Below the pieces are notes generated by a model, which saw only the letters and a program-made list of their open reading frames with translations, was not told the origin of the DNA and searched no databases. From Oscillospiraceae bacterium (lineage in GTDB: Bacteria > Bacillota > Clostridia > Oscillospirales > Oscillospiraceae), in contig CAJTCG010000002.1 in NCBI GenBank assembly GCA_910574635.1, forward strand, positions 1 to 64,000: 64,000 nucleotides of DNA, written 5' to 3'. Within the stretch, counting starts at the first letter, position 1; each line of letters opens with the position of its first letter. Of the stretch, positions 6,202 to 56,643 are shown piece after piece. The position numbers and the translations under genes were made by a program.

Positions 6202-6230
6202 GAATGGCTTTTGTTGGTTTTGCATAGGAT
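6202..6230 (+). promoter_or_regulatory. GAAT/GCATA-type promoter
   Basis: GAATGG (6202-6207), 17-nt spacer ending in TGCA, TAGGAT (6225-6230). It drives the 6261 gene. Confidence 0.65.
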
Positions 6231-6260
6231 GAGATAATACTTACGAGGAGGCATATTTCT

Positions 6261-6509
6261 ATGGAGACAATCAGAGAAATCATTGAAAAGAACCCTGGCA
6301 AGACTTTGGACCTGTTCACGAGCACCGGCTATCTGATGGTCACGCCGGAAGTTTGCGCTGGCCTGCTGCGCCATGAGCCTATGAAGATGAATCCGGGCTG
6401 CTCTGAGTGTGACATGGAAGTTCCGGCGGATATGGTGCTGGCCATGCAGGTCTTCTCGATGGCGCCGGACGACAAGGATGAGAACCTGCTGCATATCATG
6501 ACCGAATGA
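6261..6509 (+). CDS. Hypothetical protein, 82 aa
   Basis: Small acidic protein containing the pattern KNPGKTLDLFTSTGYLMVTPE and a single CSEC pair near residue 50. No family recognised. It is a single-gene unit: promoter 6202-6230, GAGGAGG ribosome site before ATG 6261, and a terminator (6513-6546) right after the stop. It is one of several small single-gene units under the shared promoter type. Confidence 0.65.
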   Translation: METIREIIEKNPGKTLDLFTSTGYLMVTPEVCAGLLRHEPMKMNPGCSECDMEVPADMVLAMQVFSMAPDDKDENLLHIMTE

Positions 6510-6512
6510 GGC

Positions 6513-6546
6513 TAAGAAGCTGCCCTTAGGGGTGGCTTCTTTTTTA
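6513..6546 (+). terminator. Rho-independent terminator
   Basis: The stem AAGAAGCTGCCC / GGGGTGGCTTCTT runs into six T. Confidence 0.7.
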
Positions 6547-7319
6547 TTTGCCGATGGCGGCAAAATAGCCGGGTTGGTTGAGGCTTCTGTCGCCAGATAA
6601 GTTGCCGATGCCGGTAATTATATGAAGATAATATGCTTTTCTTATGCCTATTGCCAGAGAGTAAGGACTGGGATTTCACTGCTTGAGGGGCTGGGTCTGA
6701 TTGTGAAGCGGGAAGGGAGATGGCTTGGAATGTTGTCTTTTGATGTTGAAGTGATGGGAAGGATGGAGAATTAAGGTATGGTGGGAGAGGGGGGTTGCTG
6801 GCTGAATCAGCCGAGGTGATTCCCGGTGGCGGTACGAGCCAGGAAAAGGGGCTTCCCAGCACAAAAGCCACCGCTCTGTGGCTGATAAGCCAATTTATTG
6901 TGGCTAAGATGGCCGAAATAAGCTCCGGAAGCAGTATGGGCCAGGAAAGTCCCCTAACCCAGAAAGACAGAACGCCATTTGCCGCAGCCAAACCAGCTCA
7001 AGAGAAGGTCTCCCAGCCCGGCAACCCAAGGCCCATCAACAGTCATAACAGCAAAAGGGGCGGGAGAACGCAAAGAATCAAGCAAAACTGCTGGACCTAA
7101 AGAAAAGGTACAAACAGGACTTCTGACGTTTTAATGGGGATATACGGGGCTTCCTGGGGGAATCCAGTGCGGCTTCAATTGTTTCCGGGGCGATTCAAGA
7201 TGTAGGTACCCCTAAGGAGCAGAGGGAGGGTGCGAGGAGCAAAGAACAGAGGGTAGGAGTCCGCTGAGCTTTGGGAAGGCTTGTTGTACCTCACATTTTA
7301 AGAACAAAACAAACAAAAA
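6547..7319. other. Gene-free stretch of about 770 bases
   Basis: It holds the third ATATGAAGATAATATGC repeat (6620-6636). A frame at 6795-7100 on the plus strand has no ribosome site and a low-complexity Q/K/P-rich product. On the minus strand, a hydrophobic frame around 6850-6990 could be a fragment of a membrane protein gene. I cannot support a real gene here; it may be a decayed region. Confidence 0.4.
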
Positions 7320-7348
7320 TTCCTCCCCCGCAAGTGCGGGAGAGGAGC
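7320..7348 (-). terminator. Rho-independent terminator
   Basis: In the leftward direction, CTCTCCCGCACTTGCGGGGG is followed by an AT-rich T tract. It ends the methylase gene. Confidence 0.65.
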
Positions 7349-7356
7349 AAGACAAA

Positions 7357-8355
7357 CTATTTTCGCCTGACCAAAATCCTTGGATAGCTTGTGGTATAAA
7401 AACGACCGTCAACTTCGTAGAATGGATACTTCTCTGGAACGCCTGGGACCAAGATTGCAGCTGCATCATTCAGTTTTGTGACTTTTGTGCATCCGGCTGC
7501 CCGGTGCTGAATCTGGGGGTCATATATCTTTGTTCTCAGGTGACTCCCAATGGGCGTCTTCGTGATTCCTACAATCTCAAACTGCTCGGGGCAGTACCTG
7601 GTCAGGAATGAAATGGGTACTCCCATTACACCAGGATAATCAATGGGGATGTCAACGGCCTTTTTCGCGTTAATCGCATCGTAGTTGTCAAACCGCGGAT
7701 ACATCTCCGGATTATCGGAAAACCGTCTGGAAAGAGGTAGCGGCTCATGGCGTTTCTCAATATCTATATTTGTGAACCACAGGACATTGCCAAAAGCCTT
7801 GAGTGTTCCATCTGGACACAAGAACCGCTTGGGACTTGTATAACCAACCCACATTTTATTGTCTCTAAAGAAAGGGAAAATCTCCTTGTAGGTCACACTG
7901 TTCAGATTGTTGGTGATGAGAAACTGTTTCTCAGAATTGACGAGAAGGGGTATGTACTCTCGGGCCAAGCTGAAAGGAGGGTTTGTTACTACTATGTTGC
8001 ATTGAATAAGCAGGTCATAACACTCTGGGGACCGAAAGTCTCCATTTCCTGTTAACTCCGTCCTGATACCCGCCTCAACATTCGCATCGTCTCCTCCGTA
8101 ATACTCCAATTTATAGGTTGGCTCTTCGGCATCATAGTGGGTGGAGACCAGCCCCCTCAAACCCATCTGCGTGAAGTTCAGGTGAAAATACCGCCAAAAG
8201 TTGGACTGCGCGGGGTCATCGCAATTGCAAAGGACGACCTTGCCACAAAATTGTTCTGTATAGTATATTAGCTCCTTCTCAACGTCGGCAAGCTGGGTAT
8301 AGAACTCATTATTTTGAGCCTTCCGAGCAGCCGCCAGATTGCTGTTTTTTGCCAT
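7357..8355 (-). CDS. Orphan EcoRI-type adenine-N6 DNA methyltransferase
   Basis: Resembles the M.EcoRI family of adenine methylases. Visible features are the N-terminal NNEFYTQLADVEKELIYY, a VVLCNCDDP segment near residues 40-47, a THYD....EEPTYKLEY block, GNGDFRSPEC, and the catalytic motif IV NPPF at 125-128. Length (332 aa) fits the family. No EcoRI-like endonuclease lies next to it, so it is an orphan and probably protects or marks element DNA. ATG 8355 follows AGAAAGG by eight bases; an upstream in-frame ATG lacks a site. The promoter is at 8400-8428. Confidence 0.9.
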   Translation of the reverse strand: MAKNSNLAAARKAQNNEFYTQLADVEKELIYYTEQFCGKVVLCNCDDPAQSNFWRYFHLNFTQMGLRGLVSTHYDAEEPTYKLEYYGGDDANVEAGIRTELTGNGDFRSPECYDLLIQCNIVVTNPPFSLAREYIPLLVNSEKQFLITNNLNSVTYKEIFPFFRDNKMWVGYTSPKRFLCPDGTLKAFGNVLWFTNIDIEKRHEPLPLSRRFSDNPEMYPRFDNYDAINAKKAVDIPIDYPGVMGVPISFLTRYCPEQFEIVGITKTPIGSHLRTKIYDPQIQHRAAGCTKVTKLNDAAAILVPGVPEKYPFYEVDGRFYTTSYPRILVRRK

Positions 8356-8399
8356 TTTGCATGCCTTTCTCTGATTTTCCAAGTGTTTAAGGTGTCAAT

Positions 8400-8428
8400 A
8401 TGATATGCAAATCGAGGAAAAACAATTT
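8400..8428 (-). promoter_or_regulatory. GAAT/GCATA-type promoter
   Basis: Leftward: AAATTG, 17-nt spacer ending in TGCA, TATCAT. It drives the methylase gene. Confidence 0.6.
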
Positions 8429-8551
8429 CGATGGTAGTTGCCTTTCTAGCAGTATCGAGCCTCAAGGAATCCCTCGCCGGCCCGGCCGCCGTTCTTCTTT
8501 TATCAATCCTCAGAAAGAAAGGGACCAGGCGCAAAGCCCGGTCCCATCTGC

Positions 8552-8983: not shown

Positions 8984-8998
8984 AACAAAATCCTCCTG

Positions 8999-9141
8999 TT
9001 AATCAAAATGTCCTGCGGAAAAGTCCAAGTCAGAAACCAGCGCCCAACTCTGCCCATACGCGCTGGGTGGACTCCATAAGCGAGCCAAGCAGCATAAATT
9101 TCTGCATAGCTCTGGTACATGTCGATGCTATAATCGCTCAT
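8999..9141 (-). pseudogene. Small gene with apparent frameshift
   Basis: A strong ribosome site (AAGCAGGAG) precedes ATG 9141 and the start MSDYSIDMYQSYAEIYAAW. The frame then runs on into the next gene without a proper end. In the neighbouring frame, a sensible tail (SAYGQSWALVSDLDFSAGHFD) ends at TAA 8999, exactly before the next ribosome site. This fits an intact product of about 47 residues broken by one indel, or programmed frameshifting. Confidence 0.45.
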
Positions 9142-12212: not shown

Positions 12213-12241
12213 GAATCCTTTTGCGACTGTTCGCATATGAT
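12213..12241 (+). promoter_or_regulatory. GAAT/GCATA-type promoter (divergent pair)
   Basis: GAATCC, 17-nt spacer ending in CGCA, TATGAT. It drives the 12272-13230 genes. Confidence 0.7.
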
Positions 12242-14074: not shown

Positions 14075-14103
14075 TTATTGTTTTCCTGCGGTTTGCATAT
14101 AAT
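14075..14103 (+). promoter_or_regulatory. GAAT/GCATA-type promoter, weaker -35
   Basis: TTATTG, 17-nt spacer ending in TGCA, TATAAT. It drives the 14151-15513 pair. Confidence 0.45.
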
Positions 14104-16546: not shown

Positions 16547-16631
16547 ATACGGTCCTCCTCTTTTGGATTTTAAAGCTCCTAGTGTGATATTGGTAAATGT
16601 TATGCCAATTGGATAAAAACCATTCGGGTCG

Positions 16632-16770: not shown

Positions 16771-16799
16771 AAATCAAAATTCCAGGCGTCGCATAGCAT
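16771..16799 (+). promoter_or_regulatory. GAAT/GCATA-type promoter
   Basis: AAATCA, 17-nt spacer ending in CGCA, TAGCAT. It drives the 16847 gene. Confidence 0.6.
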
Positions 16800-17827: not shown

Positions 17828-17912
17828 AGTACACATTTTGGCAGATGGGAGCCACGAATAAGAGGCCACGCTTCTGCATATTATGAACTAATCTTTCTTA
17901 GGGGGCACTGAA

Positions 17913-20693: not shown

Positions 20694-20722
20694 ATTGTAT
20701 GCAGGCTGGTTAAATCTGATTA
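20694..20722 (-). promoter_or_regulatory. GAAT/GCATA-type promoter
   Basis: Leftward: TAATCA, 17-nt spacer ending in TGCA, TACAAT. It drives the 20649 gene. Confidence 0.6.
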
Positions 20723-20811: not shown

Positions 20812-20840
20812 ATTGTATGCAAGCCTCCGAAACCCGATTC
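20812..20840 (-). promoter_or_regulatory. GAAT/GCATA-type promoter
   Basis: Leftward: GAATCG, 17-nt spacer ending in TGCA, TACAAT. A near-ideal member of the family; it drives the six-codon minigene. Confidence 0.7.
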
Positions 20841-27221: not shown

Positions 27222-27260
27222 GAACGGCCTCCCATATAATTTGTTTGATACTCTTTTTTA

Positions 27261-27289
27261 AGCATATCATGACCGAACCATTGAGACAA
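27261..27289 (-). promoter_or_regulatory. Housekeeping-type promoter
   Basis: Leftward: TTGTCT, 17-nt spacer, TATGCT. A contrast to the GAAT/GCATA promoters around it. Confidence 0.5.
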
Positions 27290-27821: not shown

Positions 27822-27878
27822 AGCAATAGTCTCCTTCAATTGATGTTGCCATATGGTATGCGAAAGTAAGAATTTCTA

Positions 27879-27912
27879 CCAAGTTGCGCCGCAAAGTCCC
27901 GACCTCTAGGCT
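27879..27912 (+). mobile_element. Solo left end of IscB-type element
   Basis: GCGCCGCAAAGTCCCGACCT with TAGG matches the hairpin left end of the iscB element at 41436 (GCGCCGTAAAGCCCCGACCT, TAGG), including flanking CCAA. No right end or coding sequence follows, so this is a scar or an abortive end. It lies exactly where the -35 of the Panacea-gene promoter should be. Confidence 0.5.
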
Positions 27913-39310: not shown

Positions 39311-39316
39311 ATTATA
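39311..39316 (-). promoter_or_regulatory. Putative -10 of PRPP-synthetase-like gene
   Basis: Leftward TTGCATATAAT; a GAATTC lies nearer than usual (13 instead of 17 bases). A partial match to the shared promoter type. Confidence 0.35.
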
Positions 39317-39390
39317 TGCAAGCTGGAGAGAATTCATCAAGGGGCAAAAGACAAGGGCCCGCCATGTGGCGAACCCTCGTTTCGCTGGGA

Positions 39391-42134: not shown

Positions 42135-43538
42135 ATGGAAAACTGCAAAGTCTTTGTAATTGGCATCACCGGTAAGCCGCTGATGCCCACAACTCCCAGA
42201 AAGGCCAGAAAACTGCTCAAATCCAAAAGGGCTAAAGTAGTTTCCAAGCGGCCATTTACAATTCAGTTAAAATATAAATCCGGCAGCGCTACCCGTCCCA
42301 TAGAACTGGGCATTGATACCGGTTCCCAGCACATCGGCGTTGCCGTGTTATCGGAGGGCAGGATTCTCTATAAGACAGAGATTCAGCTTCGTGATACCAT
42401 GGAGAAACGCTCCCTGCTGGAGACCCGTGCCTCCTACCGTCGAGGACGGCGGTACCGCAAGACCCGGTATCGCCACCCGAAGTTCAGATTCCACGCCAAG
42501 AGGGTATACTCCGAGAAGCTGATTACTCGGAACAAGCATAAAACTCACTGGAAGAAGCTGCCCAACACTATAAACACGGGCCGCCAGGAAGGCTGGCTGC
42601 CGCCGTCCATTCAGTCAAAAGTAGACCACCACTTCAACTGGATTGACCGCTATCTGGCAGTTTTGCCTGCTGGGACTCACCTCAGCATTGAGGTTGCCCG
42701 GTTCGACATTGCCCGCATGAAAGACCCCACTATCCACGGTGAACTTTATCAAAGAGGCCCGCAATACGGATACGAGAACCTCAAGGCGTATGTCTTTGCT
42801 CGTGATGGCTATAAGTGCCAGTGCTGCAAGGCTAAGGCAGGTTCCATAAGCAAAACCACAGGCAAAAGGGTTAAGCTGGTAATGCACCACGTCCAGATGA
42901 GGTCCAAGGGCGCTACGGACAACCCCAAGTTCCTGGCCTCCGTTTGCACAGAATGTCATTCGGCGAAGAACCACCAGCCCGGAGGTATTCTCTACAAGTG
43001 GTACGAGGAAAACAAGGCCTTCAAACGCGAGTACCGGGATTCCACATTCATGAACATCCTGAGAAAGCGCATCATGAAGCATTATCCCAGCGCCAGGTTT
43101 ACTTACGGCAACATCACGGCGACCGACCGCAAGAGGCTGCTGCTTGCAAAAACCCATGCAAACGATGCAGTGGCGATTGCGGGATACAATACCCCTGAAA
43201 TTGTTTCCAACTGTACTGCTATCTACTATAAGCAGGTCCGCAAGAAGAAACGGTCTCTGCACGAGGCAAGCCCTAGGAAGGGACGTTTTGCTCCGAACAG
43301 GAAGGCCAAACGAGCCAACAAAAACACAAAAGCATCCAGAGGATTTTTTCTCTGGGACAAGGTGCTTATTGGCAACACAGTCGGCTGGATTTGTGGGTTC
43401 TCGGGAGAAACGGCTGCTTATGCTGTTGACAAGGACGGGGATTACATTCCTGTTCCGGGCAAAGAGTATAAACTGCACCAGTTGTCCACCATGAAAGCGC
43501 TGAAGCACAATAATAACTGGATTTCGTATTCAAAGTAA
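42135..43538 (+). CDS. iscB: IscB RNA-guided endonuclease
   Basis: 467 residues with all expected parts. The PLMP domain is at 15-18; RuvC-I is GIDTG with D61. An arginine-rich bridge helix with the RRxRR motif follows (RRGRRYRKTRYR, 102-113). RuvC-II is LSIEVARFD with E186. The HNH domain has CQCC (228-231), HH (251-252) and CTEC (271-274), and RuvC-III is HANDAVAI with H341 and D344. No catalytic residue is missing. The roughly 100-residue C-terminus fits the target-adjacent-motif-interacting domain. IscB cleaves double-stranded DNA guided by omega RNA and is the ancestor of Cas9. AAAGGAG precedes ATG 42135. Confidence 0.95.
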   Translation: MENCKVFVIGITGKPLMPTTPRKARKLLKSKRAKVVSKRPFTIQLKYKSGSATRPIELGIDTGSQHIGVAVLSEGRILYKTEIQLRDTMEKRSLLETRASYRRGRRYRKTRYRHPKFRFHAKRVYSEKLITRNKHKTHWKKLPNTINTGRQEGWLPPSIQSKVDHHFNWIDRYLAVLPAGTHLSIEVARFDIARMKDPTIHGELYQRGPQYGYENLKAYVFARDGYKCQCCKAKAGSISKTTGKRVKLVMHHVQMRSKGATDNPKFLASVCTECHSAKNHQPGGILYKWYEENKAFKREYRDSTFMNILRKRIMKHYPSARFTYGNITATDRKRLLLAKTHANDAVAIAGYNTPEIVSNCTAIYYKQVRKKKRSLHEASPRKGRFAPNRKAKRANKNTKASRGFFLWDKVLIGNTVGWICGFSGETAAYAVDKDGDYIPVPGKEYKLHQLSTMKALKHNNNWISYSK

Positions 43539-44488: not shown

Positions 44489-44517
44489 ATTATATGCAGG
44501 CGGCACGAAAATGATAA
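44489..44517 (-). promoter_or_regulatory. GAAT/GCATA-type promoter (RNA A), overlapping -35
   Basis: Leftward: TTATCA, 17-nt spacer ending in TGCA, TATAAT. Its -35 overlaps that of the rightward promoter inside the palindrome AAAATGATAATCATTTT (44508-44524). Confidence 0.55.
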
Positions 44518-44543
44518 TCATTTTCCTCTACCTCGCATAATAT
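44515..44543 (+). promoter_or_regulatory. GAAT/GCATA-type promoter, overlapping -35
   Basis: TAATCA, 17-nt spacer ending in CGCA, TAATAT. It transcribes the region 44550-44705. Confidence 0.55.
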
Positions 44544-44761: not shown

Positions 44762-44790
44762 ATTATATGCGAGGCCCACCGAGATTGTTC
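44762..44790 (-). promoter_or_regulatory. GAAT/GCATA-type promoter, weak
   Basis: Leftward: GAACAA, 17-nt spacer ending in CGCA, TATAAT. It reads into the hairpin at 44730-44761 with no gene beyond. Confidence 0.35.
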
Positions 44791-46249: not shown

Positions 46250-46846
46250 TCAGGCCGCGTCTCCGCCGTCTTCCGGTACATTGGAGTACTCCTCCATCAC
46301 CTGGGTATACAGCTTCTGGTACGCCTCAGGGGTCAGCCGGTAATAGCTGGCAAAGGCGCCGGTCTTGGCGATGTTGTGGTTGGGCATCGTCAGCCGCAGG
46401 GCCTTGGTGTCCGCGTCCAGAACAATCGCGATGCGGTTCAGGGCGATGGATTCATCCACCAGACAGGAAGCAAAGGCCTTCATCTGCCGGTTCTCGGGGA
46501 AACGGTGGATATGGAAGCCAGAGAAAACGGGCTCTGCAGCCTCGGCCTCCAGCGTGACCTCCGCCTCGTTCTTGTCCTCGTCGATGGCTTTCTGGAGGCA
46601 GTCGATAACCGCCGCCGTCATGGCCTGACGGGCCTCGTTGTTGATGGGGTTGTAGATATCCCGGTACACGCCGGACCTGGACTGCTTCGTGGGCATTTTC
46701 AGCCACGGGGTCCCGCCCTCTTCGGCGGACCGCAGCAGACGCATGTCCCGCAGGGTGACGCTCCCGTCAATTTCCACATTCGCATAGGCAAGCACAGGAG
46801 AGGTTCTATCCTTGGGCCGAATGACCCGAATCTTAGTAATAGTCAT
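46250..46846 (-). CDS. spoVG: Tandem SpoVG-domain protein
   Basis: 198 residues with two SpoVG-like domains where normal SpoVG has one (about 85-95 aa). Domain 1: ITKIRVIRP...LAYANVEIDGSVTLRDMRLLR...LKMPTKQSRSGVYRDIYNPINNEARQAMTAAVI. Domain 2 (from about 110): FHIHRFPENRQMKAFASCLVDESIALNRIAIVLD...LTMPNHNI. SpoVG binds nucleic acid and regulates capsule, virulence and sporulation genes. It lies downstream of the giant adhesin gene in the same orientation. The second copy is diverged. Confidence 0.88.
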   Translation of the reverse strand: MTITKIRVIRPKDRTSPVLAYANVEIDGSVTLRDMRLLRSAEEGGTPWLKMPTKQSRSGVYRDIYNPINNEARQAMTAAVIDCLQKAIDEDKNEAEVTLEAEAAEPVFSGFHIHRFPENRQMKAFASCLVDESIALNRIAIVLDADTKALRLTMPNHNIAKTGAFASYYRLTPEAYQKLYTQVMEEYSNVPEDGGDAA

Positions 46847-46979
46847 GGTTGAGAAAACTTCCTTTCTGTATGAACGCCGGATGTTCCGACGGTAGTAGTT
46901 GATTTGGAATCCCTTTCAGGGGAGCCGCCCGGCCCCCGGGAAAGGCCCCGGGAGCCATCTTGCGGCAGTCAGGCCGGTA

Positions 46980-49900
46980 TCAGTAACCGGTCTTGGGGAG
47001 CGTGTTAGGGCGGGAAGCCTTACCAGCCGTGCCGCCAGCGGCAACGGATGTTGTCCAGAGGGCGGAAGCGGTGGCCCAGGACTCACCATACTTGCCGCCG
47101 CACTCGCTACGAAGGATGACCTTGTAGCCGGGAACAGCGTGGGGCAGAATGTACCCGAAGAAGATGGGAGCCTTGGTGGGCTTGAAGCCAGCGGGAACCG
47201 TACCGAACTCGAACCGGATATGCGTCACGTACTCGCCGCCGTTGACGTTGATAGCCAACGAGCTGAGGTCGTACTGATAGGGGCTGGAGGAGTTCAGGCC
47301 GGTAGCCAGGACGCGGTAGTCGTTCTGGTTCGTCTTGTACTTGATGGTGTAGTAGATGGAAGACGACCAGGTGCCGGTGTAGAGAGTGCCGGCCCGCATT
47401 GCGTCTGTCGGAACCGTGATGGTCCAGTAGAAGTTATCCAGGCGCTCAGCGGATTCGTTGTTCACGGCGGGGAAGAGGAACTTCATGTTGGTGCCCGCCG
47501 CCGCAGTGTTGTTGCCGGTAACCTTGTGGGTCACCTTGAGGTTCATGGGGCTGTTCTGGTACTCAGTCCGGACCACGTCATTGTTGATTTTGATGTAGAC
47601 CTCAGTCTCCTTGACCGGCCCGTTGTTATCGGTCATGCCGAAGTAAGCGGGAGCGGTCTTCTGCCGGATGATGTAGCGGCCAATGGGCAGGACGCCGGAG
47701 GCGGCCACGCCGTAGGAGTCGGTCGTAATCGTCGCGACAACGGCAAACGTGAAGGGGTCATAAATCTCAAAGACGCCGCCCTGCAGGTTGGAGCCCTGGG
47801 CAAGGTCCAGAGTCGCGTTGTAAGCAGTAGATGTCAGGTGAACCTGAATCTGTCCGCCCTCCGTATACATCTTCCATGTGATTTCGGTAGTCTCGCCATT
47901 GAGCACGTCAATGGTCTTGGGAACCTTATCCACGGTGTAGCCGCTGGGGACGGAAATCTGCTCCAGAGTGTAGGAGCCATTGGTCACGCTCTGTTTCAGC
48001 GTGATATAGCCCTCGTTGTTGCTGGTGTATTCGTCGACAATCTTGCCGGTGCTGTCTTTCAGCATGACCCGCACTCCGTAGATGGCGGCGCCGGTGGTGC
48101 CGTTCACGAACTTCACGCGGATGCTGGACAGCTGGGTCAGCTGGAAGTCGATGATGGTGGGTGCGTCAGCCTTGACCTCAACCCTGCGCTCGACGCAGAG
48201 TGTAAAGTTCTTATACCCCTCCGGCAGCTCCGTCATCTTGATGACATACCAGCCGGGTTCCAGGGTGGCATAGGCGATGCCCACGCTATCGGAAGTGAAG
48301 GTGCCAACGATGGTCCCTTCCAGAGTGGTGATTTGGTACTTGACGCCAGCGACCATCTCCCCGGTCTGCTTCACGGAAGTGCGAATCTGCACGCCATAGG
48401 TCTTGCCGTGGTAGAATTTCACGGTCGCGGTGCCGTTGCTGGAAATCTCGATGGACTGAGAGTCCTCGGAGCCAATAGTGTAGCCACTGGGCGGAGTAAT
48501 CTCTTTGATGACGTACCAGCCGGGCTCCAGGGAGTCCACGGTCAGCAGGCCATTCGCATCAGTGGTGTAGTTGCCGACGAGTTCGCCGTTCTGCTTGGTG
48601 ATGGTGACCTTCATGCCCGGCAGGCCGACTTCCTTGTTGTCAAGGGAGAAGACCTGGAGGAGCCCTCTGGCCACGAACTCAAACTTCACAGTGACAGCGA
48701 CTCCGTCCTTGATTTCGACGGTTTGCTCGGTGGTCACGGCGGTATAGCCGTTCTCAGCCTTGATAACCTTCAAAACGTAGAAGCCAGCGGTCAGCTTATC
48801 AGTCTGAATCACTCCAGTGGTATCGGATGTGTAGGTGTTCACAAGCACGCCATTCTGCTGCCAGACCTCGATAACGACGCCGGACAGGGGAGCCTGGGTG
48901 TCCTTGTCGACCGTCTGGATGGTGATGCCCGCGTTGGGCGTATCCTGGAAGGTGACGTGGGCCTCAGTGCCAACCTTGACATGGACGAGCTTGGCTTCTT
49001 CGTCAATGGCGTAGCCGGTGGGAGCTTTCAGCTCCTCGACGGAGTACATGCCCTCGGTCAGCCCGGAAACCAGGGCCAGACCGTTGGAATCTGTCTCGTA
49101 TTCGCCGATGACGATGTTATCGGAATTGCGGGTGACCTGGAATCTCGCGCCGGCCAGCGTCTCGCCGGTCAGACGGTCCACCTTTTCGATGACGAGTCCG
49201 GCTGTGTAGTCCTTGAACACCACAATAGTGGTCTCCCCGGAAACAACAATGCCTTCTTTCTCGGCGTCGACGATGGTGTATTTGTCAGGCGCGTAGGTCT
49301 GTTTAATGATGTACCGGCCCGGGAGCAGGCTGCCCCAGACAATGGAGCCGGAATTGTCGGTGACGCCCTCAGCAATCAGCTTGCCGGTCTCAGCGTAGTA
49401 CAGCTGGAATCGGCCGCCTTCGAGCTTGTGGCCGTCAGCCTGGTCCTCCAGACGGATAACCAGGGAGCCCATGGCCGCGTCAACGAACTCGACACGGTTA
49501 ATGACTCCAACCTTGACCGTGATGGTCTTGGGAGTCTCGCTGGCGGAGTAGCCCTCCGGGGCGGACATCTCAGTCACAATGTAGTGTCCGGGAGGGATGG
49601 GGCGGACAATTGCCTCACCCTGGGCGTCGGTGGTATAGGTGCCGATGAAGTCTCTGTCCGCCGTTTCAACCTTGAAGACCGCTCCGGCGATTCCCTTCTT
49701 GTTGCCAGCGTCACCCTTGAAGATGACCAGCTCGCAGGCAGGGTTATCGCGGACTACCAGGGGAACAATCTTCCCGGCCGTCACCTCCACGCGGAACACT
49801 TCGTCATTGAGGAGGTAGTTGTCGGGGGCTTTGGTTTCTTTGACGTAGTACACACCGGGCTCCACAGCAAAGATGGGGTCGCCTGCGGTATCGGTGGTGA

Positions 49901-52900
49901 ACTCGCCAACGACCTTGCCCTCGGCGGTCCGAATCTCGAACTTAGCGCCCATCAGGGGAGTATCGTCCACGGCGGACAGCTTGGTAATCATGATGCCCGT
50001 CAGCGGGACGTTCTCGACCTTGAGCTTTGCGGGGTGGTCGTAGAGGACCTGAACATGGTGATGGGTCTCGTCCAGGATGTACCCCTCCGGCGCTTTCGAT
50101 TCTTTGACAATGTAGTTTCCAGCCGGCAGGGGCTCCGTAAAAGCGATGCCCGTCTTGTCGGTGGTATACACGCCCAGGAGCTTCTCGCAGTTCAGGGTGT
50201 ACAGCTCAAACTCAGCTCCGGCCAGGTACTTTCCGGTCACGGAATCGGTTTTGAGGATTTCGATAGAGGTTCCTTTGTGGTTCTCAATCGTCACAACGGG
50301 ATACTCGCCCTCTGGGACGATAACCTTGGTGTCTTCCGTGCAGATAGCGTAGCCGGTGGGGGCTTTCTTCTCGACCAGGAAGTACACGCCGGGCTCCACA
50401 TTGGTGGTGACGAAGGAACCGCTGACGTCGGTGGTGTAGGTGTCAATCAGCTTGTTGTCGGCCGTCCGCAGCTCGAACTCCGCGCCGGCCAGGGGCTCAC
50501 GGGAGGTCGCATCCACCTTATGGACCGTGATACCGCTCTGCTTGGTGTTGGGAACGGTGACAGAGGCAGGTTTGCCCTCGACAATCTCCACGAGGTTTTC
50601 CTTCTCGTTGAGGACGTAGCCATCCGGGGCCTTGGTCTCGACGACCTTGTACCATCCAGGGGCGATGTCGGTGAGAGTTGCCACGCCGCTGCTGTTGGTG
50701 GTAATGGTTTTCAGCACGGAGTTCTTCATGTCGCGGACCTCGAACTCGGCGCCGGCCAGAGGCAGCTTGGACTCGGAATCAATCTTATTGACCGTCAATC
50801 CAGCCTTCTGGTAGTTATCCAGGTAGACGTAGGTGACCTTGAAGTCCTCCACGAAAACCCGGTGGTCAGTGCTGTCCAGGAGGTAGCCCTCGGGGGCTTT
50901 TGTCTCCCGGAGGATGTACCAGCCGGAGTCCAAATCCGGAACCCGGATATAGCCGTCCAGGCCAGTGGTAAGCGGCTCTTTGCCAATCAGCTCGCCGTCC
51001 AGCGTCCGAAGCTCGAACACCGCGCCAGCCAGAGGCAGCCCGCTGATAGCGTCCCGTTTCAGGACCGCGATTCCGCCGGGCTTGTTGTTGCGGAACAACA
51101 TAGTCTCAGTCCGGCCCTCATCCAGATAAACGTTCTGGGGAGTGGAGTTCAGCAGGTAGCCCGGGGGCGCCTCAATCTCAGTAACCACGTAGGTACCGGG
51201 AAGGAGGTCGGTAAGGGATGCCAGACCGTCCTCGCCAGTCACAAGGCGCTCCTTAATGACCCTTCCGTCACTCAGGGTGACCTTGTAAACAGCGTTGGCC
51301 AAACCGATGTGGGTCTGGGCGTCCTCCTTGCGGATGAAGAGGTTCGTCTTTCCGTCATTGTAGAAGACCTTGAAAACAGGCTCCGTCTGACCGCGGCGAA
51401 TCTCGAAGGTCTGGGGAACGGGGTCGATGATGTGGCCATCCGGGGCCTCGACCTCAGTGATGACGTACGCACCGGGCTCCAAACCCGCCAGCGTGCCAAT
51501 GCCGTTGGGGCCGGTCTCAACCGTCGCGATGTAGTTGCCGCCAGCCGTGGTAATCTCGAAGAGAGCACCGGGCAGGGGCAAGCCAGTCTGAGCATCCTTT
51601 TTCAGGATAATCAACTGGGTATCCTGATAGTTCTCATAGGTGACGGTGACAGGCTCGTGCTTGTTCACGATTTGAACCAGCCGGGGCTCACTGTCGATAA
51701 CGTAGCCGTCGGGAACGGCGGTCTCGGTGATTTGGTACCAGCCGGGCTCGCAGTCGGGCAGGTAAATGAGTCCGTTTGCGTCGGTGACGTAGGTACGGGG
51801 GTCATTTGTGGTGCCATTGGGGCTGTCGGCGGTGCCAAGGAAGCGGACTTCGAAGGAAACTCCTTCCAGGTTCTGGCGGGTCGTCGCGTCCAGCTTCCGA
51901 ATCAGGAGGCCCTGCTCGGGAGCGTTGAGGAACTCGATATCGATAACCCGGTCACTGTAAGATGTGATGGTCACATCCTGCCAGTTGGGGTCCGCGAGGC
52001 TGTATCCGGTCGGGGGAACGGTTTCCGTGACGCGGTAGGTGCCGTTGGGCAGGTCCTTGAACGTCAGCTGGCCGTTGCCATCCGTCTTGCCTTCCCGGTG
52101 GATGGGACCGCCCTTGGGATTCTCCAGGTTAATGGAGTCCAGCGTGAAGGTGGCGTCCGCCAGGGTCCAGGTGTTGGAACTGTCTCGCTTGGTGATGCGC
52201 AGGTCGCGGAAGTGGGTGTCCTTGAATACGAACTCCGCGTAGGACTGGCCCCATTTCAGGGTCTGCGTCTGGGTGTAGTCGCCGGTCGCGTCCTGCTTAT
52301 CCTTGTTGTACTTGTCTGGCATCTCCTCTTCCTGAACCGTAATGGTCCAGTTGTCGAAGTTGTTCTCGTCAAGGAACCGGGCGTAGGTATCGTAGTCAAT
52401 GGTGATAACACCAAAGTCGTCCGTAACCTTGGTTCCGATGTCCTTGCCGTCAATCCAAATCTTGAATGTGGTGTTGGGAAGGGGTTCGCCCGTCTCCCGG
52501 TCCCGCTTCAAGATACGGATATAGGGATACTTGGTATCCGTAAAGGTGAAGGTCTTGAGCGTCTCGCCCTGGTGCAGTTCAGCCTCCTGCCAGTTGTCAT
52601 CGTCCAGCAGGTAGCCGTCAGGGGCGGTGATTTCACGAACGGAAACGGTCCAGGACTCAGCATCCTTGGGCTGCAGGAACTCGCCATACTCGGCGTAGGT
52701 GAGGTGAATCTTGCCGTTGGCATCCGTCTTGAAGGTGTCAATGGTCTGCGCGTTAATCCGAACCTCGAAGGTGGCACCAGCCAGACCCTTGCCGGTCTCC
52801 CTGGAGATTTTCTCAATCTCGATATCGGGGTACTGATAGTTGGTCACGGCCAGCACGTACTGCTCAACCGTGTCGCCTTCCTCGAACAGCCAAAGGTTGT

Positions 52901-54530
52901 GAACGGGGTTGGCGGGGAGCAGGTAACCAGCCGGTGCATTTGTTTCGGTAAAGGTGTACAGGCCGGGCAGGATGCCAGTGCCGTTTTCGCCTTCCAAAAC
53001 AACGGAGCCATCAGGGCCAGTGGTTACGGAACCCAGGTCCTGGCCGTCACGCTCTACTTTGAACACGGCGCCCTCAAGGCCCTTGCCGCTGGGGTCCTGC
53101 TTAATGAGCTTGATGGTACGGAACTTCTCGTTGACGAACACGAGGTCGCCGGAGCAGTCGCCGTTTTCGTACAGGTCAATATGCCGGGTTTCGTCAACAG
53201 GGCGGTAGCCGGCAGGGGCCTGAATCTCCCGAATGGTGTAGTGACCGGGGGGAATGTAGTTGGGGAGGTCAGGGCTGACCCACTGAATGGGAATCTCGCC
53301 GTTGGACTGGCTGGTCCGCTCCTCGTGGACCCGCTGGCCGCCACCTTCCTCGCCGCCGTCAGCCTCGCCTTCAATAAGGAATACGGCACCAGGGATGCCC
53401 TTGCCATACTGGTCAACCTTGCGGAAGGAGCCGTCACCAGGGTCAGGTTCGTCGGAGTAGTTCACGATGGCCTTGCCGGAGACGAGAACAGCCTTAGATT
53501 TAGTATTATTGGCGGTAGTCATCGATGTTGCGTAAGGAGTATCGTCGAGTTCGCAGCCAGGAGGAGGAGTGAGTTCCTTGACGATGACATTCATAGAGGT
53601 TTTGCCGGTGTCAAGTCGCTTGTTCCAGTAGGCAAACCCATCAGAACCAGTGGTAATTCTGTCCATGGGCTCACCACTTGTATCGGCACCCTCATCATAG
53701 ATGCCAAATACGGCACCAGCCAAAGGCTTACCCTTGCTGTCTACCTTCTGAACTTTGAGCCAGACCTCATCAGGGTCATTGACATCGGGGTCTGGCTCCA
53801 GAGGCATAATCAAGGGCTGATAGGTGTTGTCACGGTAGTAAACGACGTAATCCAGGTGTTTGACTTCCTTCTTAATCCAGGGAATAATCACGGCCTCTTT
53901 GAGGCTCGAAAGCATCTCGGTTGGAGTCCTGTTGTAGGATGGATTGACGGTTTTAGCTGCTTTTACAGCCTCTTCCGCAACCTCCATGAGGAAGTTATCG
54001 TGCATGCCGGCCTGAATTTCCTCGGCTGTAGCGTTCATGAGGAAATTGTACCGGGAGCCGGTGCCGCGCATCAGCCAAATGGCCGCCTGACACCACGCAT
54101 TTGTAACGGGGTCATCGCTGCCCTTGGAAAAGTAGTAGTCCGCGAAAATCATGTACGGCGAGCGCATAGGGCCGTCAGCCTTCGCGTAGTTGCTTCCATC
54201 TATCAGGGTCTGGATATTCCAGGTACCGGCTTTCAGCGCCTTTCCATGCGCCCCGCAGAACACAGTTTGGTAGTTCCCATTTCCCGTGTTCACCCTGATA
54301 GTGTGAATTGTGCAGCCCTCTCCGAGCAACGGAGAGCTGTAAGAGCCATACTTGTGATAGCTCCCCGAATCAACCCGGACAGTCTTGGGAATGTCCGTTC
54401 GGATATCGGCTGCAGAGGCCGGAATGGGCAGAATCCCGAGAGTCAGGATAAGCGCCATAAAGAGGGAAAGCATCCTCGTGGGGAAATGCCTCCCAATGGA
54501 AGGGAAATTCCCTCCGGTTGCAGTTCTCAT
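46980..54530 (-). CDS. Giant thioester/SpaA-repeat surface adhesin, 2516 aa
   Basis: Signal peptide (MLSLFMALILTLGILPIPASA, about residues 20-40). Then a thioester-type domain (YQTVFCGAHGKALK; CQAAIWLMRG near 155) that in relatives forms a Cys-Gln bond for covalent host binding. I count 22 tandem SpaA/Cna-B repeats of about 85 residues from about residue 270, each with K-x-D near the start and an E-T-x-A-P-x-G-Y end, which usually carry Lys-Asn isopeptide bonds. A C-terminal domain of about 190 residues follows. The chain stops at LPKTGY with no membrane helix or basic tail. GGAGG precedes ATG 54530. Confidence 0.93.
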   Translation of the reverse strand: MRTATGGNFPSIGRHFPTRMLSLFMALILTLGILPIPASAADIRTDIPKTVRVDSGSYHKYGSYSSPLLGEGCTIHTIRVNTGNGNYQTVFCGAHGKALKAGTWNIQTLIDGSNYAKADGPMRSPYMIFADYYFSKGSDDPVTNAWCQAAIWLMRGTGSRYNFLMNATAEEIQAGMHDNFLMEVAEEAVKAAKTVNPSYNRTPTEMLSSLKEAVIIPWIKKEVKHLDYVVYYRDNTYQPLIMPLEPDPDVNDPDEVWLKVQKVDSKGKPLAGAVFGIYDEGADTSGEPMDRITTGSDGFAYWNKRLDTGKTSMNVIVKELTPPPGCELDDTPYATSMTTANNTKSKAVLVSGKAIVNYSDEPDPGDGSFRKVDQYGKGIPGAVFLIEGEADGGEEGGGQRVHEERTSQSNGEIPIQWVSPDLPNYIPPGHYTIREIQAPAGYRPVDETRHIDLYENGDCSGDLVFVNEKFRTIKLIKQDPSGKGLEGAVFKVERDGQDLGSVTTGPDGSVVLEGENGTGILPGLYTFTETNAPAGYLLPANPVHNLWLFEEGDTVEQYVLAVTNYQYPDIEIEKISRETGKGLAGATFEVRINAQTIDTFKTDANGKIHLTYAEYGEFLQPKDAESWTVSVREITAPDGYLLDDDNWQEAELHQGETLKTFTFTDTKYPYIRILKRDRETGEPLPNTTFKIWIDGKDIGTKVTDDFGVITIDYDTYARFLDENNFDNWTITVQEEEMPDKYNKDKQDATGDYTQTQTLKWGQSYAEFVFKDTHFRDLRITKRDSSNTWTLADATFTLDSINLENPKGGPIHREGKTDGNGQLTFKDLPNGTYRVTETVPPTGYSLADPNWQDVTITSYSDRVIDIEFLNAPEQGLLIRKLDATTRQNLEGVSFEVRFLGTADSPNGTTNDPRTYVTDANGLIYLPDCEPGWYQITETAVPDGYVIDSEPRLVQIVNKHEPVTVTYENYQDTQLIILKKDAQTGLPLPGALFEITTAGGNYIATVETGPNGIGTLAGLEPGAYVITEVEAPDGHIIDPVPQTFEIRRGQTEPVFKVFYNDGKTNLFIRKEDAQTHIGLANAVYKVTLSDGRVIKERLVTGEDGLASLTDLLPGTYVVTEIEAPPGYLLNSTPQNVYLDEGRTETMLFRNNKPGGIAVLKRDAISGLPLAGAVFELRTLDGELIGKEPLTTGLDGYIRVPDLDSGWYILRETKAPEGYLLDSTDHRVFVEDFKVTYVYLDNYQKAGLTVNKIDSESKLPLAGAEFEVRDMKNSVLKTITTNSSGVATLTDIAPGWYKVVETKAPDGYVLNEKENLVEIVEGKPASVTVPNTKQSGITVHKVDATSREPLAGAEFELRTADNKLIDTYTTDVSGSFVTTNVEPGVYFLVEKKAPTGYAICTEDTKVIVPEGEYPVVTIENHKGTSIEILKTDSVTGKYLAGAEFELYTLNCEKLLGVYTTDKTGIAFTEPLPAGNYIVKESKAPEGYILDETHHHVQVLYDHPAKLKVENVPLTGIMITKLSAVDDTPLMGAKFEIRTAEGKVVGEFTTDTAGDPIFAVEPGVYYVKETKAPDNYLLNDEVFRVEVTAGKIVPLVVRDNPACELVIFKGDAGNKKGIAGAVFKVETADRDFIGTYTTDAQGEAIVRPIPPGHYIVTEMSAPEGYSASETPKTITVKVGVINRVEFVDAAMGSLVIRLEDQADGHKLEGGRFQLYYAETGKLIAEGVTDNSGSIVWGSLLPGRYIIKQTYAPDKYTIVDAEKEGIVVSGETTIVVFKDYTAGLVIEKVDRLTGETLAGARFQVTRNSDNIVIGEYETDSNGLALVSGLTEGMYSVEELKAPTGYAIDEEAKLVHVKVGTEAHVTFQDTPNAGITIQTVDKDTQAPLSGVVIEVWQQNGVLVNTYTSDTTGVIQTDKLTAGFYVLKVIKAENGYTAVTTEQTVEIKDGVAVTVKFEFVARGLLQVFSLDNKEVGLPGMKVTITKQNGELVGNYTTDANGLLTVDSLEPGWYVIKEITPPSGYTIGSEDSQSIEISSNGTATVKFYHGKTYGVQIRTSVKQTGEMVAGVKYQITTLEGTIVGTFTSDSVGIAYATLEPGWYVIKMTELPEGYKNFTLCVERRVEVKADAPTIIDFQLTQLSSIRVKFVNGTTGAAIYGVRVMLKDSTGKIVDEYTSNNEGYITLKQSVTNGSYTLEQISVPSGYTVDKVPKTIDVLNGETTEITWKMYTEGGQIQVHLTSTAYNATLDLAQGSNLQGGVFEIYDPFTFAVVATITTDSYGVAASGVLPIGRYIIRQKTAPAYFGMTDNNGPVKETEVYIKINNDVVRTEYQNSPMNLKVTHKVTGNNTAAAGTNMKFLFPAVNNESAERLDNFYWTITVPTDAMRAGTLYTGTWSSSIYYTIKYKTNQNDYRVLATGLNSSSPYQYDLSSLAINVNGGEYVTHIRFEFGTVPAGFKPTKAPIFFGYILPHAVPGYKVILRSECGGKYGESWATASALWTTSVAAGGTAGKASRPNTLPKTGY

Positions 54531-54718
54531 GTTTTAGGTTCCTCCTTTTTTGGTCATAGATTTGTTGAGGTTCTTGTGGATGGCGGTAAAATCCGCCCTG
54601 CAGATTTGGCCAATGGCCAGTGTATCAACCAGGGTCAATGTGCATTTTAAGTCACCTCGCTTCCTTGTAATGAGCACCTTGCTGGCACCGCAATGCACGG
54701 AGCCGGGTGTGTGTCAAT

Positions 54719-54747
54719 ATGATATGCAGAGCCGGGGAAAACGATTT
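54719..54747 (-). promoter_or_regulatory. GAAT/GCATA-type promoter of giant adhesin
   Basis: Leftward: AAATCG, 17-nt spacer ending in TGCA, TATCAT. The leader to ATG 54530 is about 180 bases. Confidence 0.6.
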
Positions 54748-54832
54748 CGGGGGACTTTCAGCCACCCCAGGCCTTTTTAGAAAAGACTGCTTCCCCAGCG
54801 TGGCTGAAAGCCACCTCACCAGTTGATGACTT

Positions 54833-54861
54833 ATGATATGCGAACCGCAGAAAAGCTATAA
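54833..54861 (-). promoter_or_regulatory. Second, weaker GCATA-type promoter
   Basis: Leftward: TTATAG, 17-nt spacer ending in CGCA, TATCAT. Its transcript would start with the GTGGCT-type hairpin. Confidence 0.35.
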
Positions 54862-54902
54862 CGACCCTAGAAGAACCACTTGAATAGGGTAAAATACAGC
54901 GG

Positions 54903-54962
54903 TTGGCAAAAGAGAATACGTCTGACGCATAAGACGAGGTTGCCTGGGGCTCGACACAGATA
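54903..54962. repeat. Palindromic element, degenerate left half
   Basis: TTGGCAAAAGAGAATACG followed by GGGGCTCGACACAGATAC. Confidence 0.5.
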
Positions 54963-54987
54963 CATAGATAATCTAGGCATAATAAGA

Positions 54988-55022
54988 AAAGAAAAAGCCC
55001 ACCTCCCGAAGGAGGTGGGGCA
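54988..55022 (-). terminator. Rho-independent terminator
   Basis: In the leftward direction, GCCCCACCTCC / GGAGGTGGGC is followed by TTTTTC. Confidence 0.6.
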
Positions 55023-55294
55023 AATAAGGGTGGCTGGGATTCGCTAGAAGAAGTTGTTGGAATATATTGAAAATGGTCGTCCTATCTGGTATGATGCTGT
55101 AAAAGAAAAGAGAATGCGAAGTGACTCTTATGCTTGGGATTGTAGCGCTTTTGCAATCCTGAATAATTTTTCTTTGGTCGTAACACTCCTCCTCGTATAA
55201 TAGGGATAAGGAGGATATATGCAAAAGCACAGAAATTAAATCGGGAGAGAAGACTACAGCCCTGACCATCTGGTCAGGGCTGGGCTCTTTTGAA

Positions 55295-56521
55295 TCAATA
55301 TCTGGAATAAATCCAAGTGTCGGATGCCACTTCGGGTAGTTTGAATGTTTCGCGGTCCCCATTTCCTGACCAAGACACGCCCAAAGTGCCACCGGCATCA
55401 CAGACGGTGTAATATGTTGGGCCACGCCCTTGAGCAGTAGGAGAAATAACAACAAAAACATGATTATAATTTGTTTTTGTATTCTTCATCCATACAACAT
55501 CGCCCACCCTTAGCTGGTCAAAATTTTGATGTTTGGTTACTGGAGCTTGTTCGTCAAAGAGTGCATCAGAAATGGCATATGCAAAGGAATTGCAACCTCC
55601 ACCATAACCAAAACCTTTCGATGAATAATAATATTTTCTTTCATCAGAAGTTCCTCCGTACCACGGGCTTCCTTCTGGCATCGTCTGCTCAAACTTTGCC
55701 AGAAGCTCCTTGATGTTTTCCTCCGTAATGGGTTTGCCATTGGTCAGATAACCCTCCCGATAAGTCGTAGAGGCATTGATGCGGTCCATCATCTGCTGGG
55801 CATTCTCGCCGTCCAGCATCTTAAACAGGGGACCATCGGTTACCTCTGGCGGCTCGGAGGGGTCAACCGGGTCAACAGGCGGCTCGGTTGTGTTCCCCAT
55901 GTAATCCCGCAGTCGATTGATGACGACACATCCCTGCGCCCGGTTCATGGGGTTCTTGGGGCCAAAGCTACCATCGCTCTGTCCACCCAGAAGACCGGTG
56001 GTGTAGCATACCATGACGGCCCGGCGGCAGTTGTTGTTGATGCTCTGAAAATCGCTGATGGACCCCATAGACTGGAGGTACTCGGTGTCGGTGGGAATCT
56101 TCACCCCCTTATCCACCAGGATGTTATACATAACCTGCGCCATATCCTCACGGGGGAGGGAGGCCCCAATGGAAGCGGACGAACGGCTGGTGCCACTCAG
56201 GATGCCATGCTTGTTCATGATGGCCTCTCCGGTAGCCGTGCCCTGGTCAGTGTAACCTGCCAGTTCAGAGGCATAGAAGGCCCGGGCCAGCATGGTGGAG
56301 AAGGCTCCGTAGGACACCGGGTTGCCAGGCTTGAAGGTGCCGTCAGAGTAGCCGGAGACAATGCCATCCCGCACGCAGCGGTTAATCTGCTGGTACGCCC
56401 AGTGGGAGGTAGGCACATCGCTGAAGCTGGGGGTAGCTGCGAGCATGGGGCCAATCGAGGCCACGGTCATGGCCAGCAGCAGCCCAAGTGCCACAAGCCG
56501 GATTTTCATAATATTTTTCAT
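55295..56521 (-). CDS. SLH-domain surface protein with C-terminal peptidase/amidase-like domain
   Basis: 408 residues. Signal peptide (MKNIMKIRLVALGLLLAM...LAA). Two or three S-layer homology domains (SFSDVPTSHWAYQQINRCVRDGIVSGYSDGTFKPGNPVSYG; FGPKNPMNRAQGCVVINRL) to about residue 210 for cell-wall attachment; a proline/aspartate linker; then a papain-like C-terminal domain (GCNSFAYAISDALF with the cysteine, VGDVVWMKNTKTNYNHVFVVIS with the histidine), similar to CHAP/NlpC or amidase folds. It probably remodels peptidoglycan. GGAGG precedes ATG 56521. Promoter at 56615-56643. Confidence 0.82.
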   Translation of the reverse strand: MKNIMKIRLVALGLLLAMTVASIGPMLAATPSFSDVPTSHWAYQQINRCVRDGIVSGYSDGTFKPGNPVSYGAFSTMLARAFYASELAGYTDQGTATGEAIMNKHGILSGTSRSSASIGASLPREDMAQVMYNILVDKGVKIPTDTEYLQSMGSISDFQSINNNCRRAVMVCYTTGLLGGQSDGSFGPKNPMNRAQGCVVINRLRDYMGNTTEPPVDPVDPSEPPEVTDGPLFKMLDGENAQQMMDRINASTTYREGYLTNGKPITEENIKELLAKFEQTMPEGSPWYGGTSDERKYYYSSKGFGYGGGCNSFAYAISDALFDEQAPVTKHQNFDQLRVGDVVWMKNTKTNYNHVFVVISPTAQGRGPTYYTVCDAGGTLGVSWSGNGDRETFKLPEVASDTWIYSRY

Positions 56522-56614
56522 ATAGGTAAATCCTCCTTTTATTGATTGTGCGGGTTGAAACTCCGCACCTGTTTAAGCTAAAGTAGTGGAGTAGAAGCAT
56601 CGCTTCTGGGGTTT

Positions 56615-56643
56615 ATTATATGCGAGGTAGGGGAAAGCCATTC
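56615..56643 (-). promoter_or_regulatory. GAAT/GCATA-type promoter
   Basis: Leftward: GAATGG, 17-nt spacer ending in CGCA, TATAAT. It abuts the stop of tnpA (56646). Confidence 0.65.

Follow-up and report, generated by a model that had tools for sequence, protein, structure and literature searches.

A rigidly spaced, element-specific promoter-like motif on an apparently conjugative mega-element of an Oscillospiraceae bacterium

The DNA analysed here, called the window throughout, is the first 64,000 nucleotides of contig CAJTCG010000002.1 (C2:1-64000; C2 measures 387,044 bp) from the assembly GCA_910574635.1 of an Oscillospiraceae bacterium (G000; 4.48 Mb in 99 contigs). Together with a smaller contig, C42 (20,584 bp), C2 apparently makes up a conjugative mega-element of at least 408 kb, which by its gene content carries replication genes and 33 tRNA genes. 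The common assumption is that mobile elements rely on the housekeeping promoters of their hosts. Most genes of the window that start a putative transcription unit are preceded here by a different motif, which is specific to the element, rigidly spaced, intergenic, pointing into genes and kept in a related element of a second genome. We propose, with a probability of about 0.75, that this motif is the standard promoter of the element and is read by an element-encoded sigma factor, sigma-1, on the core polymerase of the host.

Promoter-like sites in the window

A pattern search of all contigs with the strict form of the motif, GAAT-N16-GCATANNAT, gave 70 matches in the assembly, 62 on C2 and eight on C42, and none on the other 97 contigs (~4.07 Mb); the reversed pattern, run as a control, had no match in the assembly. 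The window has 47 copies of GCATANNAT alone, where 100 dinucleotide shuffles gave 5.9 on average and never more than 11. On C42 and on C2 without its 57-125 kb stretch, GAAT and GCATANNAT are separated by 16 nt in 70 cases and by 14, 15, 17 or 18 nt in none, and for NAAT the gaps of 15, 16, 17 and 18 nt were counted 4, 148, 2 and 2 times. The consensus, drawn from the 70 strict sites and from 215 GCATANNAT sites without a forced -35, reads GAATCNNTTTYY-N6-YYGCATANNAT, with a preference for CAA about 5-8 nt 3' of the -10. A weight matrix of 37 positions with a threshold of 12 bits, trained on element sites, retrieved 205 sites on C2 (36 in 1-57 kb, eight in 57-125 kb and 161 in 125-387 kb), 20 on C42, three in 400 kb of host contigs and one in 262 kb of Markov simulation; because of this training the element counts are not independent of the matrix, while those for the host, the simulation and the related element are. 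The strict sites are thus confined to the element, as a private regulon would be. Of the 36 sites in window 1-57000, 31 reach at least 20 bits.

An earlier, sequence-only reading of the window had proposed a non-canonical promoter shared by its transcription units. All 12 positions that it named were recovered by the matrix, 12208(-) at 12.5 bits and the other 11 at 24.2-32.3 bits, and its hexamer, exactly 17 bases and TANNAT are equivalent to the strict motif with its invariable gap. The sharing thus stands, while its figure of about 21 units falls short of the 36 sites found. Its statement that TTGACA is absent holds for promoters, since the window has no exact TTGACA-17-TATAAT, and fails for the hexamer, which occurs 36 times in window 1-57000, with a loose -10 at a suitable distance for two of them; the whole assembly has 47 matches to TTGACA-N17-TATAAT, two of these on C2. 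The sites of the window, with their matrix scores, and the two surface-protein genes behind the motif are as follows.

4554..4582, plus strand, predicted element promoter, 26.1 bits, start codon 49 nt past the -10
6202..6230, plus strand, predicted element promoter, 26.6 bits
8400..8428, minus strand, predicted element promoter, 33.1 bits
9225..9253, minus strand, predicted element promoter, 28.9 bits
9950..9978, minus strand, predicted element promoter, 30.7 bits
10655..10683, minus strand, predicted element promoter, 28.2 bits
10837..10865, plus strand, predicted element promoter, 18.2 bits
11429..11457, plus strand, predicted element promoter, 32.6 bits
12180..12208, minus strand, predicted weak element promoter, 12.5 bits, orthologous site in the related element
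12213..12241, plus strand, predicted element promoter, 30.5 bits, matrix and orthologue comparison
14075..14103, plus strand, predicted element promoter, 30.0 bits, matrix and orthologue comparison
16597..16625, minus strand, predicted element promoter, 27.6 bits, matrix and orthologue comparison
16771..16799, plus strand, predicted element promoter, 25.4 bits, matrix and orthologue comparison
17856..17884, plus strand, predicted element promoter, 22.0 bits
19812..19840, minus strand, predicted element promoter, 31.3 bits, matrix and orthologue comparison
20694..20722, minus strand, predicted element promoter, 30.9 bits, matrix and orthologue comparison
20812..20840, minus strand, predicted element promoter, 28.1 bits
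22235..22263, minus strand, predicted element promoter, 31.4 bits
22277..22305, plus strand, predicted element promoter, 24.2 bits
24370..24398, minus strand, predicted element promoter, 32.3 bits
26783..26811, minus strand, predicted element promoter, 30.9 bits, matrix and orthologue comparison
27242..27270, plus strand, doubtful site, 13.3 bits, no near gene downstream
27853..27881, minus strand, predicted element promoter, 20.2 bits
31599..31627, plus strand, predicted element promoter, 26.6 bits, matrix and orthologue comparison
39311..39339, minus strand, predicted element promoter, 29.1 bits
40126..40154, minus strand, predicted element promoter, 28.8 bits
41364..41392, minus strand, predicted element promoter, 25.9 bits
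43898..43926, plus strand, predicted element promoter, 29.5 bits
44489..44517, minus strand, predicted element promoter, 26.2 bits, divergent with the next
44515..44543, plus strand, predicted element promoter, 26.8 bits, divergent with the preceding
44762..44790, minus strand, doubtful site, 14.9 bits
45894..45922, minus strand, predicted element promoter, 24.4 bits
46980..54530, minus strand, SpaA-repeat surface protein of 2516 aa, behind the motif
54719..54747, minus strand, predicted element promoter of the SpaA-repeat adhesin, 32.8 bits
54833..54861, minus strand, second upstream site of the SpaA-repeat adhesin, 27.9 bits
55214..55242, minus strand, doubtful site, 16.0 bits
55295..56521, minus strand, SLH-domain surface protein of 408 aa, behind the motif
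56615..56643, minus strand, predicted element promoter of the SLH-domain gene, 29.4 bits, 37 of 37 matrix nucleotides identical in the related element

In the divergent pair at 44489-44543 the -35 regions of both sites lie within one palindrome, GAAAATGATAATCATTTTC, which resembles a Fur box. On the minus strand GCATATTATYTTCATAT occurs three times (5711-5719, 5881-5889 and 6628-6636) where no -35 accompanies it; these copies were not scored as promoters.

Position of the sites relative to genes

Genes were called with a simple in-house caller (446 genes), so that the gene-relative numbers are approximate. With the 57-125 kb stretch left out, 188 of 197 sites on C2 are intergenic, in DNA of which 19.8% is non-coding. 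A same-strand start follows within 10-100 nt at 73.6% of these C2 sites and at 5.0% of random positions, and the most frequent distance from site to start is 40-50 nt. Among genes of at least about 60 codons with an upstream gap of at least 60 nt, a site lies within 200 nt for 129 of 182, against 1 of 16 within 57-125 kb.

This motif-poor stretch is AT-rich (GC 0.44-0.46 in 20-kb blocks from 60 to 120 kb) and carries only 58 called genes in 68 kb; two of its eight sites are strong (29.0 and 26.4 bits). Loose sigma-70-like sites occur there at 5.44 per 10 kb, compared with 1.8-1.9 elsewhere on C2 and 1.75 in the host, a threefold density that base composition alone may explain. Its counterpart in the related element (C15:78-107.8 kb, up to the contig end; GC 0.466) has parts in common with it and holds two sites. 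The presence of such a stretch in both elements indicates that the private code belongs to the core element and not to everything in it.

Element sites precede the genes for DnaE, the coupling protein, the Replic_Relax protein, topoisomerase I, the ligase, an FtsH-like protease and surface proteins. No site was found within 700 nt upstream of the GyrA/GyrB, VirB4-like, TrbL-like, ParA-like and Y-family polymerase genes, which may lie inside operons or use other promoters.

The motif in a related element

A scan for the coupling protein through a collection of 84,980 species returned one locus, with 75% identity, in Oscillospiraceae bacterium isolate C18_42_OV_BP (G300; 4.6 Mb), of which four contigs were fetched (C15, C16, C18 and C27; 301 kb). 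AAT-N16-GCATANNAT occurs at 117 sites in G300, against one for the reversed control; 102 of them fall on these four contigs and, among those listed, one each on C10 and C26, and ten other G300 contigs (200 kb) have no match to this pattern and a single matrix site above 12 bits. The GAAT spacing is also rigid in G300, with 16 nt in 59 cases, 17 nt in two, and 12-15 or 18-20 nt in none. The best sign of selection is an asymmetry that is independent of the letters chosen: for genes of C2 outside 57-125 kb whose alignments start within 12 residues (C42 excluded), the G300 orthologue has a site within ~190 nt upstream in 79 of 89 cases when the C2 gene bears one, and in 9 of 99 when it does not. 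Across the 79 orthologous site pairs GCATA is 100% identical, as is the A of the final AT, followed by its T at 89%; the AAT positions reach 73, 92 and 99% and the middle of the spacer ~30%, with the letters partly selected by the matrix. The 238 genes shared by C2 and G300 have a median protein identity of 64%.

In 394 genomes sampled from the order the coupling protein was found at E <1e-40 only in G000 and in one fragment, G498, whose contig C26 (6.6 kb, 30% GC) holds one 13.2-bit site and is uninformative either way. Among 300 genomes sampled from the family of the host, the motif cluster was found in G000 only, and no other exceeded four matches. In both samples the element is thus rare.

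The region 46250-55017 of the window is 89% identical to contig C15 of G300, and the blocks 56385-57244 and 59766-62377 both exceed 98% DNA identity to it, where the median for shared proteins is 64%; these blocks within 56385-62377 perhaps reflect a recent exchange. The strand opposite the SpaA-repeat gene (46980-54530) is open along the full length too (46899-54650, 2583 aa).

Gene content of the element

Pfam matches on C2 with a role in transfer include a VirD4-type coupling protein (T4SS-DNA_transf/TraG-D_C), a TraG/VirB4-type P-loop ATPase and the Replic_Relax protein, a putative relaxase (C2:228297-229568); a match to TrbL was weak (19 bits, cut-off 27). DNA metabolism is represented by topoisomerase I, GyrA, GyrB, an NAD-dependent DNA ligase, RecG, two RecD2 and UvrD helicases, and by a DnaE-like polymerase after sigma-1 with an intein-like insert, recognized by eye in the translation. 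Further matches comprise a CHAP/M23 hydrolase, the FtsH-like protease, an anaerobic ribonucleotide reductase, the SpaA and SLH surface proteins and a sortase. The tRNA genes, identified with ARAGORN, form a group of six (286581-289015) and an array of 27 (312898-317983). Ahead of the array stand three predicted element promoters in tandem (29.4, 25.6 and 26.0 bits) and an exact TTGACA-N17-TATAAT; the 590 nt preceding the smaller group contain no site above 8 bits. Eight tRNA genes were found on the fetched contigs of G300. No terminase, portal or capsid was named when 14 proteins were compared with PHROGs and 41 with Pfam (one in part), of the 446 genes called.

Other genes noted are those of an RRXRR/HNH protein in the window (42135-43538), a TnpB-like OrfB_IS605 protein (C2:202159-203409) and a protein that combines endonuclease/exonuclease/phosphatase, reverse transcriptase and group II intron maturase domains (C2:274512-277358).

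Sigma factors of the element

The sequence-only reading had suggested searching the rest of the replicon for sigma factors, and C2 was found to encode three proteins with sigma-like regions, all outside the window: a small one within the motif-poor stretch (101439-101927), sigma-2 (197050-197691, 213 aa) and sigma-1 (245442-246143, 233 aa), which is of the sporulation SigE/F/G/K kind and lies on the same replicon as the 62 strict sites. Sigma-1 belongs to the sigma-70 family by its scores for Sigma70_r2 (50.9 bits, cut-off 24), TIGR02937 (66.8, cut-off 42.9) and Sigma70_r4 (cut-off 24.1; 23.2 bits in the protein scan and 25.9 in the genome search). The best specific models, SigK, SigG, SigF and SigE, gave 43-60 bits with curated cut-offs of 252-457, which makes sigma-1 a divergent member of the group and an orthologue of none of them. 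In region 2 its identity with each of SigE, SigG and SigK is 29-36%, and alignment alone therefore cannot choose among them; the linker between regions 2 and 4 is short in the alignment, as in SigE and SigK and unlike SigG. The relative of sigma-1 on contig C18 of G300 is 72% identical over 211 aa in the genome search and 76% over 195 aa by tblastn, the latter above the median of the shared genes, and in both genomes it occurs together with the motif cluster.

Upstream of sigma-1 both elements have TTTGYCAATAGAC and, in register, TAGACR-N17-TARAAT, with TAGAAT as the -10 in G300. The pattern TAGAC[AG]-N17-TA[AG]AAT has a single match on C2 (387 kb) and a single match on the G300 element contigs (301 kb), each with exactly 222 nt between the end of its -10 and the sigma-1 start codon. 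The leader (C2:245220-245441) had no Rfam match above threshold, the sole match being far below the gathering score. Owing to the likeness of this promoter to TTGACA-N17-TATAAT we regard host sigma-A as its probable reader.

Discussion

The idea of an element-wide promoter of non-housekeeping type holds, C2 does encode a sigma factor of sporulation kind, and the sequence-only reading is to that extent partly supported. The refuting outcome it had named, an equal frequency of the motif in the rest of the host genome, did not materialize, with no strict site on the remaining 97 contigs. Its picture of a regulon of accessory genes proved too narrow, given that the genes behind the motif, spread over ~340 kb, include those for replication, conjugation, proteolysis, surface proteins and tRNAs, and a stage-specific programme found no support, sigma-1 carrying a vegetative-looking promoter.

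Co-occurrence of motif and sigma-1 in two genomes, conservation and the type of the promoter point to sigma-1 as the probable reader of the motif. According to this scheme, host sigma-A would transcribe the sigma-1 gene from TAGACR-N17-TARAAT, and sigma-1 would redirect the core RNA polymerase of the host to most of the element, with sigma-2, genes of replication and conjugation, surface genes and the 27-tRNA array among its presumed targets. Sigma-1 would have retained the geometry and the -10 of SigE/SigK-type promoters and altered its preference for the -35. The transcription programme of the element would then be largely insulated from that of the host. Several observations weigh against the proposal. 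The co-occurrence concerns two genomes, both assemblies are in many contigs, and the placement of C2 in this host depends on the assembly. The leaders of the two sigma-1 genes align poorly apart from the promoter block, and the C2 copy has a weak element-type site (15.5 bits) 35 nt before its start that is absent in G300. Of the 182 genes with an upstream gap, 53 are without a site, hence other promoters or operons must exist; a search for a second motif among these 53 gave nothing convincing. Six Bacilli plasmids with homologues of sigma-1, compared below, have no comparable cluster (2, 1, 2, 1, 9 and 0 sites per record). Finally, sigma-2 could read some or all of the sites.

This last possibility, in which sigma-2 is the reader and sigma-1 does another job, we consider unlikely. 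Sigma-2 is present in both elements; it was identified via its G300 counterpart, shows region 2- and 4-like stretches, and the G300 copy narrowly passes TIGR02937 (44.1 bits, cut-off 42.9). As expected of an autoregulated factor, it is preceded by strong element-type sites in both elements (31.9 and 29.4 bits, 198 and 200 nt before the start). However, the C2 copy is not among the Sigma70_r2 or Sigma70_r4 matches, and while both elements share one motif, their sigma-2 copies are only 45% identical, compared with 76% for sigma-1. The sigma-2 leader (C2:197692-197890, ~200 nt) looks similar in both elements by eye.

It is quite improbable that a mother-cell sigma factor of the host, SigE or SigK, reads the sites and that the element is expressed in sporulating cells. 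The host owns a true SigE above the curated cut-off, as well as a SigG, and the arrangement of the motif is of mother-cell type, combining a CATA-type -10 with a -35 that contains AT and lies some 16-18 nt further upstream (AAT-N17-CATANNAT, 148 places). PMC3789822 gives CATATTAT as the canonical -10 box of mother-cell sigma factors and ATA-N16-CATATATA as a SigE promoter, and the assignment of CATANNAT to this type is based on its likeness to these boxes. The sequence-only reading was right about a sigma factor of sporulation type and wrong about SigG, as CATANNAT is closer to SigE/SigK in that source. Nor does its view that the spacing differs from sporulation promoters stand: the putative SigE-type site before host spoIVA, picked by pattern as TCAT-N16-GCATAGATT (TCATACTT...GCATAGATT), has the box distance of the element motif with other letters. 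Nevertheless, this spoIVA site scores 2.4 bits with the element matrix, and 0.2 in G300, against at least 20 bits for most window sites. One site in the 400-kb host sample attains 18.8 bits, but the strict motif is missing from all the contigs where the SigE regulon of the host must lie, and the element has its own conserved sigma-1.

We attach very little probability to the view that the repeats are not promoters but sites to which an element-wide DNA-binding protein binds: rigid spacing is typical of the sites of dimeric proteins too, yet the motif is directional, not palindromic, points to a gene mostly 20-60 nt before the start codon, prefers CAA at the expected transcription start and has its -10 in common with known promoters. 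That an AT-richer replicon (GC 0.52 for C2 and 0.54 for C42, against 0.60 in 400 kb of other contigs) simply uses the motif as an ordinary housekeeping promoter, a sigma-70 type that it resembles in position and spacing, is hardly credible and is taken as refuted for G000 and G300, the AT-richest stretch of C2 being the poorest in motif, strict sites being absent from the host contigs and Markov sequence of element composition giving a single site.

Returning to sigma-1 as the reader, it is tempting to speculate, at what we would call even odds, on a self-governing second genome that is conjugative, has its own replication proteins and tRNA set, and runs a cascade from sigma-A through sigma-1 to sigma-2 with a sporulation-derived sigma factor and a near-element-wide private code; the host would then give core polymerase and ribosomes, and not promoter recognition. 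One code, hardly used by host contigs, is followed at more than 200 promoter-like sites spread over ~340 kb; on elements of this kind, predictions that look for host-type promoters will pass over many genes. If sigma-1 does read these sites, the element offers a testable case of near-complete transcriptional insulation of mobile DNA, a route for specificity change in a sporulation-type sigma factor and an orthogonal promoter set for Bacillota.

Comparison with known systems

No description of this element or motif was found in searches of the open-access PMC literature. The megaplasmids reported in the HiBC paper are others, of 103 and 126 kb (PMC12056005). Conjugative transposons of Clostridioides difficile carry putative sigma factors whose consensus sequences, according to PMC7438776, are still to be identified; they likewise reside on mobile elements of a related bacterium, and are likened here by description. 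Sporulation-like sigma factors encoded by phages of Bacillota, some of which activate host sporulation genes according to PMC9429907, are similarly located on mobile DNA, with the difference that the motif described here lies on the element itself. Phage records gave 25-30% identity to sigma-1, and no relative of sigma-1 or of the coupling protein was confirmed in IMG/VR.

A related conjugation region is found on megaplasmids of Bacilli, including Paenibacillus polymyxa pSC2, Brevibacillus halotolerans CP139434 and Jeotgalibacillus malaysiensis CP009417. In six such plasmids (127-722 kb) the coupling protein is 42-61% and VirB4 53-59% identical, a sigma gene is present in 6/6 and a replication-relaxation annotation in 4/6, the sigma gene is followed by ClpX in 4/6, and PrgI lies within a few genes in 5/6. 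These sigma factors are only 26-32% identical to sigma-1, and other dyads sought in the plasmids formed no cluster either; the code is thus not general to the wider family, and the sigma factor of these regions either predates it or was recruited more than once. The Jeotgalibacillus plasmid, whose sigma factor is the closest of the six (32%), has the most matches to AAT-N16-GCATANNAT, nine in 603 kb with none for the reversed control, which may be a small excess. Two Paenibacillus megaplasmids (L118 and L122) carry TTGACTATANNCAA upstream of genes, with four copies in 40.5 kb and seven in 41.9 kb against 0-1 in the other four plasmid regions, perhaps as a plasmid-wide operator over sigma-A promoters.

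SigE, SigK and SigG of endospore formers resemble sigma-1 by the closest profile matches and by the CATA -10 box; unlike them, sigma-1 sits on a mobile element and scores far below the family cut-offs. The closest precedent is SigN (ZpdN) of the Bacillus subtilis plasmid pBS32, a plasmid-encoded sigma factor that steers the host RNA polymerase to a plasmid regulon, the likeness being one of arrangement. As described in PMC6751061, sigN has SigA-dependent promoters, much as sigma-1 has a sigma-A-like one, and SigN is LexA-controlled, autoactivated and tied to cell death; its sites, ATTTACGTTT...AGATATAA, differ from the GAAT...GCATANNAT that is spread over this element at more than 200 sites. 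Beside this precedent the present system is unusual in its extent, in its rigidity, in its cargo of tRNA and replication genes and in its two-sigma arrangement.

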